From Candidatus Altimarinota bacterium (lineage in GTDB: Bacteria; Patescibacteriota; Gracilibacteria; BD1-5; UBA2023): a stretch of DNA of 64,000 nt. The DNA is taken from the NCBI GenBank assembly GCA_028713325.1, contig JAQTON010000003.1:62001-126000 (forward strand), written 5' to 3'. Of the stretch, positions 24,574 through 47,379 are shown one piece after another. The number at the start of each line of letters is the position of its first letter. The stretch's first letter is position 1. The notes below the pieces were generated by a model that was not told where the DNA came from, searched no databases, and was given only the letters and a program-made list of their open reading frames with translations. The position numbers and the translations under genes were made by a program.

Positions 24574-25018
24574 AATTTATGAGTCTACAAAATAGGAAAT
24601 AATCAGGAGTATGCTATAAAAAAAGGGAGAAAAGTCAAAAGAAATCCCGAAAAATAGAAGATTCTCCTCCCACAAAAACTTGCATTCTCTCAAAAACCCC
24701 CTACAATTCCCGCACATCTCTTTGTTTCTTCACTTTTCCCTCTTCACGAAAACAAATCATATCCTCTCTTTGTTCCGATAATTATAAAAATCTCAAAAAA
24801 TCTTTTGACACGGAGTCTCTTTTCTATACAATACCACCACTTTCAATTTTCGAAGCATGATGTTGCCGCTGTAAGACAACCTCTCAAATGCATATAGATT
24901 CTAGAAGTCATTTAAAAGTTCAATCTTCATTACTTTAGGGAAATATTCCCTACTTATGCAGATTCATTTCTTTTATCTGTAAGAATATAATTATAGTTTT
25001 TGTAACTTTTTTATTCAG
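24574..25018. other. Intergenic region between divergent lysS and rplC
   Basis: 445 bp, AT-rich. It holds the ribosomal-operon promoter at 24805-24832 and, on the minus strand, a TTGACT about 60 bp upstream of lysS. About 180 nt of untranslated leader precedes rplC and includes a 16-codon open frame starting near 24887 and ending in TAG. I see no recognisable riboswitch or S10 gene. Confidence 0.5.
24805..24832 (+). promoter_or_regulatory. Promoter of the ribosomal protein operon
   Basis: TTGACA (24805-24810), 16 bp, TACAAT (24827-24832), about 185 bp before rplC. Confidence 0.65.
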
Positions 25019-44667: not shown

Positions 44668-45042
44668 CTCTTCTTTCGGAGGGACATACGCCGAGAGTGT
44701 AAACTCTCAGAGGAAAGTCCGGACACTACTGAGATAGTATGGCAGATAACGTCTGCGGCTTCGGGATATATATGAAACCAGGAGTACGGAAAGTACCACA
44801 GAGACGATACTAATTCCGAGAAATCGGGATGAAAGGTGAAAAGTCCGCCTGAGGCGGATGTAATTATTCTTCGGAATAATTATGTGGCAAACCCCATATG
44901 GTGCAAGAGGAATGGTACTCCGTTTATCTATGACGATCTCGGTCGATAAACGGAGTATACCTCGCTAGAGAGTGCGGGCGACCGTACTACGAGATAGATG
45001 TATGTCGAGACACAGAATCCGGCTTACTACCCGAAAGAAGAG
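44668..45042 (+). ncRNA. rnpB: RNase P RNA, type A-like
   Basis: The ends pair as helix P1: CTCTTCTTTCGG with CCGAAAGAAGAG. The conserved P4-side sequence GAGGAAAGTCCGGAC is at 44710, and the 3' partner ACAGAATCCGGCTTACTACC is near 45012. GGTGCAAGAGG and the central helices are also present. It is the catalytic RNA that cuts tRNA 5' leaders. Confidence 0.93.
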
Positions 45043-45064: not shown

Positions 45065-45685
45065 ATGAATATCCTCCTTGTTTGAATCCAATGATCGGGA
45101 AAATGAACCCAAGCTCGAAAAATTGCTGCCGATTACGGGTACAGTTTTTTCGAGATGGGGCAGAAGCTTCGAAATTTCTCGGAATTGGATCATCCTCGAT
45201 CTCGTGAAGTAAAATCGTATATGGAGCAAGGGAAGTTGGTTCCAGATGACCTTATTACCACTATGCTCGAACACTATCGCGATACGCACGGGAGTGATAA
45301 AATCCTCTTTGACGGAATCCCACGATCGAGTGCACAAAAAGCTCTCTTCGATGCGGTATTTCCGAATTATTTTGTGGTATTTCTCGATCTCAAACGAGAA
45401 CAGGCCATCGAACGGCTCGCGGGACGCAAGATCGACCCGTCTACGGGCGAGAGTTTTTCGGCGGATTTTGCCGGGTCGTTCAGTCCTTTTACCGGACAGA
45501 AACTCATCAAACGACCAGATGACACTCCCGAAGCGGTGGCGAAACGAATCGAGATTTTCTACGATAATACCCTTCCGCTTTTGGCTCTCTGGGCACAGGA
45601 AGGGAAGCGGGTGTATACTATCGATGCGTCAAAGGATATAGAAACGGTGTATGAACAGATTAAAGTGGTTTTATCAGCGTATTAA
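45065..45685 (+). CDS. adk: Adenylate kinase
   Basis: 206 residues. The P-loop G-IQG-SGKG-TQA uses TGA for three of its four glycines (codons 7, 10 and 14). Without recoding the first 30 residues, including the P-loop, vanish. FDGIPRSSAQ and RPDDTPEAVAKRI follow. It interconverts ATP, ADP and AMP. The gene is away from its usual place after secY. Confidence 0.95.
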
Positions 45686-45709
45686 TTTTACTTTTTTATT
45701 ACTTTTTCT

Positions 45710-46048
45710 ATGAATAATTGGCTTCGTTCCCAGAGTGTACTCTTTTATGCGGTAATACTCAGTGCTATTATCGAAATATTCGAAGTAATACGAGGATCGT
45801 GTGCTGTTTGGCAACAGGAATTCCTTCTTCTCGCCATCATAGGAACTATGAGTTTTTCCGTTCGGAATCGGAGAATTTCCTATCTTGCGACACTCGGACT
45901 TCTCATAATTTATGCCGTGGAATTCTATGAGCAGTTTATAGAGCTTGAGGTATGCGGATTTGCCGCATCGGAACTCACCCCTCTTCTCATAATCGCTCTT
46001 CTATCGGCACTTTCGGTTGTAGACATGAAAGGATGGAAACGAAAATAA
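45710..46048 (+). CDS. Hypothetical three-helix membrane protein
   Basis: 112 residues with hydrophobic segments at about 10-25, 38-50, 57-72 and 85-103, and a basic end. No motif is recognised. It follows adk by 24 bp and is probably co-transcribed. Confidence 0.65.
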   Translation: MNNWLRSQSVLFYAVILSAIIEIFEVIRGSCAVWQQEFLLLAIIGTMSFSVRNRRISYLATLGLLIIYAVEFYEQFIELEVCGFAASELTPLLIIALLSALSVVDMKGWKRK

Positions 46049-46055
46049 TGAAAAT

Positions 46056-46084
46056 AAAAAGAGCATACTGCGAAGTATGCTCTT
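46056..46084. terminator. Bidirectional terminator
   Basis: AAGAGCATAC TGCGAA GTATGCTCTT between the convergent genes ending at 46048 and 46103. Confidence 0.75.
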
Positions 46085-46102
46085 GATTGATCTTCCCTAG
46101 CC

Positions 46103-46204
46103 CTATTTGGACTTGGATTGCAGGTTGCTGCTGTGAAGAGGACAATCCGTGCGATGTCCTTTACTGCCTTTGCAACGTATACAAGGTTTTTGCTTCTTTG
46201 CCAT
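46103..46204 (-). CDS. 33-residue zinc-knuckle-like protein
   Basis: Starts MAKKQKPCIRCKGSKGHRTD. The spacing C-x2-C-x5-H-x3-C is close to the CCHC zinc knuckle (C-x2-C-x4-H-x4-C), with basic ends. A strong Shine-Dalgarno GGAGG lies 7 nt before the ATG, rare in this window, with a near-consensus promoter 50 nt upstream and a terminator downstream. All point to a real, well-expressed gene. It may bind RNA. The function is unknown. Confidence 0.65.
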   Translation of the reverse strand: MAKKQKPCIRCKGSKGHRTDCPLHSSNLQSKSK

Positions 46205-46261
46205 GATGGCCTCCATTGATTGATTTATTTTTCGTGGCACTATGGTGAAACCACGACGGAG

Positions 46262-46289
46262 ATAATATGAAAATAAAAAGCAATGTCAA
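46262..46289 (-). promoter_or_regulatory. Strong promoter for the zinc-knuckle gene
   Basis: Minus strand TTGACA (46289-46284), 16 bp, TATTAT (46267-46262). The leader carries a short CGTGG..CCACG stem. Confidence 0.65.
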
Positions 46290-46317
46290 GACAATTTGTA
46301 AAAACTACTCATAGTAT

Positions 46318-47379
46318 ATGTTTTTTTATCTCCACATCCCGTTTTGTCGCCAAAAGTGCTTGTACTGTAAATTCGCACTCACGCCGAAATTTGACGAACT
46401 CAAAATTCGCACCTATATTGATGCTCTGAAGAGAGAGATAGAAGGTTTTTTCATTTCTCATCCAGATACACTCATCGAAACCATTTATTTCGGCGGGGGA
46501 ACGCCTTCTGTTTTGACGAGCGGACAGATATCGGAAATCATCGAGGTGTTCCGGGAACAAAAGGGGTTTGCGAATGTATTCGAAATTACTCTGGAATCTA
46601 ACCCCGAAGACATCACGGGCGAATATCTCGATGCTCTTTCAGAGCTTTGAGTGAATCGGTTGAGTCTTGGGGTTCAGACTCTGAACGGCGAATCGCTCCG
46701 TGTGGTCGGGCGAGCGGATTCGAATGAATCCATTTTCCGAGCACTCGATACTATCGCAAAATGTTCGATAGAGAATATTTCCATCGATCTCATCGCGGGG
46801 CTTCCCGGTACCGTAATCGGGCAAACAGTTTCGGATTTGACCGAGATTTTTTCCTGTATCACGCCGAAGCACGTGAGTATCTATATGCTCGAGGACGAAT
46901 CATATCCTCTGAGCTGGAAACCGCACCTGCCGAGCGAGGAAATAGTTCGAAGCGAGTACTTATCGGGAATGGAATGGTTACAATCAAAAGGATTTCATCG
47001 GTACGAACTCTCTAATTTCGCAGAACCCTGATTTGAATCGAGGCATAACCGGTCGTACTGGAATCACTCGAATTATCGTGGCTTCTGACTCTCTTCGGCA
47101 AGTTTCGTCGGAGGAGAGAGGTTTATTAACAGTCCATCATTCAGCGGGTATTATCGAGGCGAAAAACAATCTGAAGGGATATTGTCGCCCGAATCGCTTC
47201 GCATCGAACGGATTATGTTCGGACTCAGAACCTCCGGCGTGTCCTTGGATGAGTTCGATACCGTGAGTACAGTCGAGAAATTTCAGAGAGAATGACTCCT
47301 TAAAGTGCGGGAAAACAGAGTTTTTCCAACTTCGACTTGAATTTTTTTGATTGACCATATAATGGGCGAGCTTATATAG
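46318..47379 (+). CDS. hemW: Radical SAM protein, HemW/coproporphyrinogen dehydrogenase-like
   Basis: 353 residues. IPFCRQKCLYCKF provides the CxxxCxxC [4Fe-4S] site, then YFGGGTPSVL, NRLSLGVQTLN and HNRSYWNHSNYRGFG-LSSASF. Five TGA codons, including the last 115 residues, are opened by recoding. Established: HemW is a heme chaperone related to HemN. With no heme genes nearby its role here is uncertain. Confidence 0.88.

Follow-up and report, generated by a model that had tools for sequence, protein, structure and literature searches.

The 269 bases that separate a 112-residue gene from hemW carry, on the minus strand, promoter hexamers, a closed reading frame with a Cys/His motif, and an intrinsic terminator, and are best read as a lineage-specific, stand-alone, orphan promoter–frame–terminator unit. 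We favor a leadered mRNA for a zinc-binding microprotein over either rival explanation of this unit, and give that reading about an even chance of being right. The unit lies in a 64-kb stretch of DNA (the window; G000:C3:62001-126000) from a 1.05-Mb genome, which is compact, with small spacers between genes. The host is a reduced, probably symbiotic bacterium. It reads TGA as glycine, a code of the SR1/Gracilibacteria type. The frame of hemW (46318-47379, plus strand; Pfam domains Radical_SAM and HemN_C) has five in-frame TGA codons and is open only if these are read as glycine; a gene caller using table 11 would split hemW. The unit and its surroundings comprise the following features.

44672-45042, plus strand: RNase P RNA, upstream neighbor
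45065-45685, plus strand: adenylate kinase (adk), upstream neighbor
45710-46048, plus strand: 112-residue protein without a match in a Pfam search, the last gene before the candidate
46284-46289, minus strand: −35 hexamer TTGACA (6/6), from sequence
46262-46267, minus strand: −10 hexamer TATTAT (5/6), after a 16-base spacer from the −35, from sequence
46232-46256, minus strand: predicted stem-loop UCGUGG...CCACGA near the expected transcription start, from RNA folding
46103-46216, minus strand: candidate microprotein frame, 37 amino acids, MEAIMAKKQKPCIRCKGSKGHRTDCPLHSSNLQSKSK, with an A+T-rich start context free of a Shine-Dalgarno (SD) sequence, like that of the window's genes
46210-46214, minus strand: GGAGG, within codons 1-3 of the 37-amino acid form, from sequence
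46103-46204, minus strand: 33-amino acid form from the second in-frame ATG, MAKKQKPCIRCKGSKGHRTDCPLHSSNLQSKSK, stop codon TAG, from translation
46140-46183, minus strand: stretch encoding C-x2-C-x5-H-x3-C-P (G000:C3:108140-108183), from sequence
46059-46084, minus strand: intrinsic terminator stem of 11 pairs with a 4-base loop, then TTTTTATTTT, from sequence

The Cys/His motif and coding signal

The C-x2-C-x5-H-x3-C motif named in a preliminary description of this DNA is present in frame and is followed by x2-H. The candidate is the sole ORF of 25-60 amino acids in the window with such spacing. Across 60 shuffled windows, none of the ORFs of this length had the exact Cys/His spacing, and a looser zinc-type motif occurred at a mean of 0.1 per window. 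When the 171-base transcript, minus its terminator, was shuffled 20,000 times with dinucleotides preserved, 27% of the shuffles contained a closed frame of 25 codons or more. A zinc-type C-x2-C...[CH]...[CH] motif within a closed frame arose in 0.015% of these shuffles and the exact spacing in none, figures that are partly post hoc because the motif came from the preliminary description. It is unlikely that the Cys/His pattern occurs by chance inside a promoter–terminator unit.

The codon usage of the frame looks like that of a wrong frame, which speaks against coding. Among real gene stretches, its codon score ranks at the 5th percentile, and it lies close to the median for wrong frames that are open, a score confounded by the unusual residue composition; scoring of synonymous codons only leans neither way. 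The AlphaFold2 model from single-sequence input has a mean pLDDT of 62.6 and a pTM of 0.24, values too low for it to be informative or to serve in a fold search.

Similarly to the CCHC zinc knuckle of the nucleocapsid type (C-x2-C-x4-H-x4-C), the candidate has three cysteines and one histidine over 14 residues, a basic character, and a glycine beside the ligands. However, its histidine is one position off (C-x2-C-x5-H-x3-C), and the spacing is not that of the knuckle; the Pfam knuckle models have no match in the candidate. A match of COX17 copper chaperone (PF05051) over KKQKPCIRCKGSKGHRTDC, with an E-value of 0.013-0.018 and 16.3 bits as compared with a gathering cut-off of 24.9 bits, was set aside as chance. 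COX17 is a eukaryotic mitochondrial family.

Promoter, terminator, and translation start

TTGACA-16-TATTAT, as described previously, is present on the minus strand (46289-46284 and 46267-46262) and scores 11/12. It is the best promoter locally, but over 64 kb such a score is not significant (two seen, 1.1 expected per shuffled window), and an 11/12 promoter proves little alone. The window's other 11/12 promoter, TTGACA-16-TACAAT (24805-24832, plus strand), is located in a gap of ~376 bases with two minus-strand genes around it and aims into the next of these as antisense; the site has no Rfam family match. The terminator named in that description is likewise present, at 46084-46059 on the minus strand, just beyond 46103-46289. 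With the transcription start estimated from the position of the −10 hexamer, the transcript would be ~195 nt in length. The strong expression suggested in the preliminary description finds no support in these results.

The closed 33-residue frame reported previously is present and reads alike under code 25, but an upstream in-frame ATG at 46216 makes a 37-residue form more plausible. The leader of the 37-residue start is 75% A+T and that of the 33-residue form 55%, with a mean of 77% for the window's genes. The GGAGG, which had been placed 7 nt before the ATG, lies 5 bases from the ATG of the 33-residue form and belongs to the in-frame ATG GAG GCC ATC ATG (46216-46202).

Among the 27 ATG-starting genes of the window, GGAGG and AGGAG are absent from positions −14 to −4, where a single gene carries a 4-base SD piece. 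The textbook 16S tail is GGAUCACCUCC. The ten readable 16S tails from the family (L104-L112 and L114) are GGACUAUCUCC or GGACUAUCUCU, and the CCUCC core is lost in all ten, being AUCUCC in five and AUCUCU in five; the host's own 16S is absent from the assembly. Because host genes are essentially without SD sites and the family tails are without CCUCC, the lineage has no usable SD pairing and the GGAGG, the most persuasive point of the earlier case for translation, is no evidence of it and should be dropped. The candidate is not an SD-led gene. Scarcity of SD sequences with loss of CCUCC is a known trait of neighboring lineages, and SD-scarce organisms without CCUCC include two SR1 (Absconditabacteria) genomes and one Peregrinibacterium (PMC10783764).

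Relatives and the adk–hemW slot

The candidate protein occurs as a single copy in its own genome. No credible relative was found in 26 other genomes of the family, 352 others of the class, or 379 others of the phylum sample, nor in phages and plasmids, the PDB, NCBIfam, or PHROGs. Conservation of the 33-residue frame or of its Cys/His residues is not seen in relatives, as none of those searched has the locus. The preliminary description had taken such a lack of conservation to suggest a small RNA. The lack is real, but it comes about through absence of the whole unit and not through decay of the frame, and it therefore does not separate protein from RNA. As judged by these searches, the candidate does not appear to belong to a conserved small-protein family.

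Several matches were rejected. Four weak ones in the family (L002-L005) are missing the Cys/His pattern or have frames carrying stops, and the best match in the class (G550; E = 0.004) overlies tRNA-like DNA. The DNA search of phages and plasmids gave just 25-31-base chance matches. Viral contigs had one motif match, interrupted by a stop, and zero matches to a tighter pattern.

When 84,980 species genomes were scanned for C-x2-C-x4-G-H-x3-C-P-[LF]-H, 14 stretches emerged, and only one of them, from Doudnabacteria, is convincing as a short protein. This 106-amino acid protein (L031, 2696-3016; also in G109/L019), which starts MECAICYKGEGHWAHCPLHPDN..., has at its N-terminus a C-x2-C-x5-H-x3-C-P-L-H spacing identical to that of the candidate. 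Unlike the candidate, it is longer, has its own second motif (C-x2-C-x4-H-x3-C), belongs to another family of the phylum, and has neighbors not in common with the candidate. The per-genome E-value of 0.016 is not significant over 380 genomes. An equally similar Bacteroidales match (L030) is antisense to a longer ORF, indicating that motif matches can arise by chance. For these two reasons, we regard the Doudnabacteria likeness as a lead and make no claim of common descent. A relaxed motif occurs at ~50 places in 353 class genomes, mostly outside plausible genes, and its excess over a reversed-pattern control may be due to TG/CA dinucleotide bias alone. One short frame of the class (L099, G689:C72, about 570-800) has a comparable N-terminal motif, MEICYFCWEKGWHSVGCP...; it has no NCBIfam family, and its PHROGs matches are insignificant.

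The genes adk and hemW are neighbors in five other genomes of the genus, none of which has the unit. In the genome closest in content (G021), a 112-residue-type gene is followed after 5 bases by hemW, as compared with 269 bases here. In G025, hemW comes straight after adk; in G024 and G023, the two are separated by another kind of gene, of about 275 residues; and in G022 the interval is longer and, as judged by eye, contains tRNA-like and integrase-like sequence. The slot (45685-46318), as compared with L007-L011, is variable among congeners, which have nothing, a 112-115-residue gene, a ~275-residue gene, or integrase-/tRNA-like sequence. Either the host species gained the unit or the others lost it.

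Two copies of an A-rich 14-base direct repeat flank the unit with a spacing of 219.

46048-46061, plus strand: left copy, ATGAAAATAAAAAG, whose complement supplies the terminator U-run
46267-46280, plus strand: right copy, ATGAAAATAAAAAG, whose complement makes up the bulk of the promoter spacer

The window has only three 14-base repeat pairs at spacings of 50-400 bases, among which this is the insert-flanking one, but it is A-rich. The unit may have been inserted through recombination at the repeat. A fuller account, in which a newly gained, species-specific 37-residue zinc-binding microprotein sits in a compact promoter–gene–terminator cassette that was inserted, with direct repeats on either side, into a slot before hemW that is prone to insertions, is tentative and in our estimate unlikely.

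Competing readings and their meaning

As a leadered mRNA, the ~195-nt unit would have entered, or stayed only in, the host genome between the gene of unknown function and hemW. A promoter of the sigma-70 type would drive it, its own terminator would end the transcript, and translation would proceed without SD pairing. The product would be a basic 37-residue microprotein whose three cysteines and one or two histidines may hold one zinc ion, and such a small zinc knuckle would most likely touch nucleic acid or a partner protein. Transcription, translation, zinc binding, and any function of the unit are what we infer.

The unit might instead yield a non-coding small RNA that acts through base pairing or protein binding, the frame being incidental; this is a serious rival, though we consider it less likely than not. 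The promoter, the stem-loop at the expected 5' end, and the terminator would fit such an RNA, with hairpins at both ends. The whole transcript has a folding z of −5.1; without the terminator, z is −2.4, with 4 of 200 shuffles equally good, which is suggestive of RNA structure outside the terminator but not decisive. The non-coding-like codon usage and the ease with which shuffles produce a closed frame also agree with this explanation. However, no Rfam 15 family reaches the gathering threshold on the candidate stretch, and on this reading the zinc-type motif would have arisen by chance, with odds of the order of 1e-4. Sub-threshold Rfam matches were implausible, being eukaryotic or terminator-like. 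Improbable, in our view, is that the stretch is non-functional intergenic DNA or a decaying piece of an acquired gene, with promoter- and terminator-like letters due to chance. That 11/12 promoters appear about once per shuffled window would allow this, as would the five congeners without the unit and the want of a homologue in the collections searched. Against it, promoter, frame, motif, and terminator are correctly ordered within 230 bases, which is unlikely by chance, and the compact genome has little intergenic spacer.

If the candidate frame is translated, its product would be another orphan microprotein missed by gene callers, from a lineage where TGA is recoded and SD pairing is absent. 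Tools that score ribosome-binding sites mislead in such a Gracilibacteria-type lineage, and the lesson for method is that GGAGG ahead of an ATG is no evidence of a gene in the host's group of bacteria.
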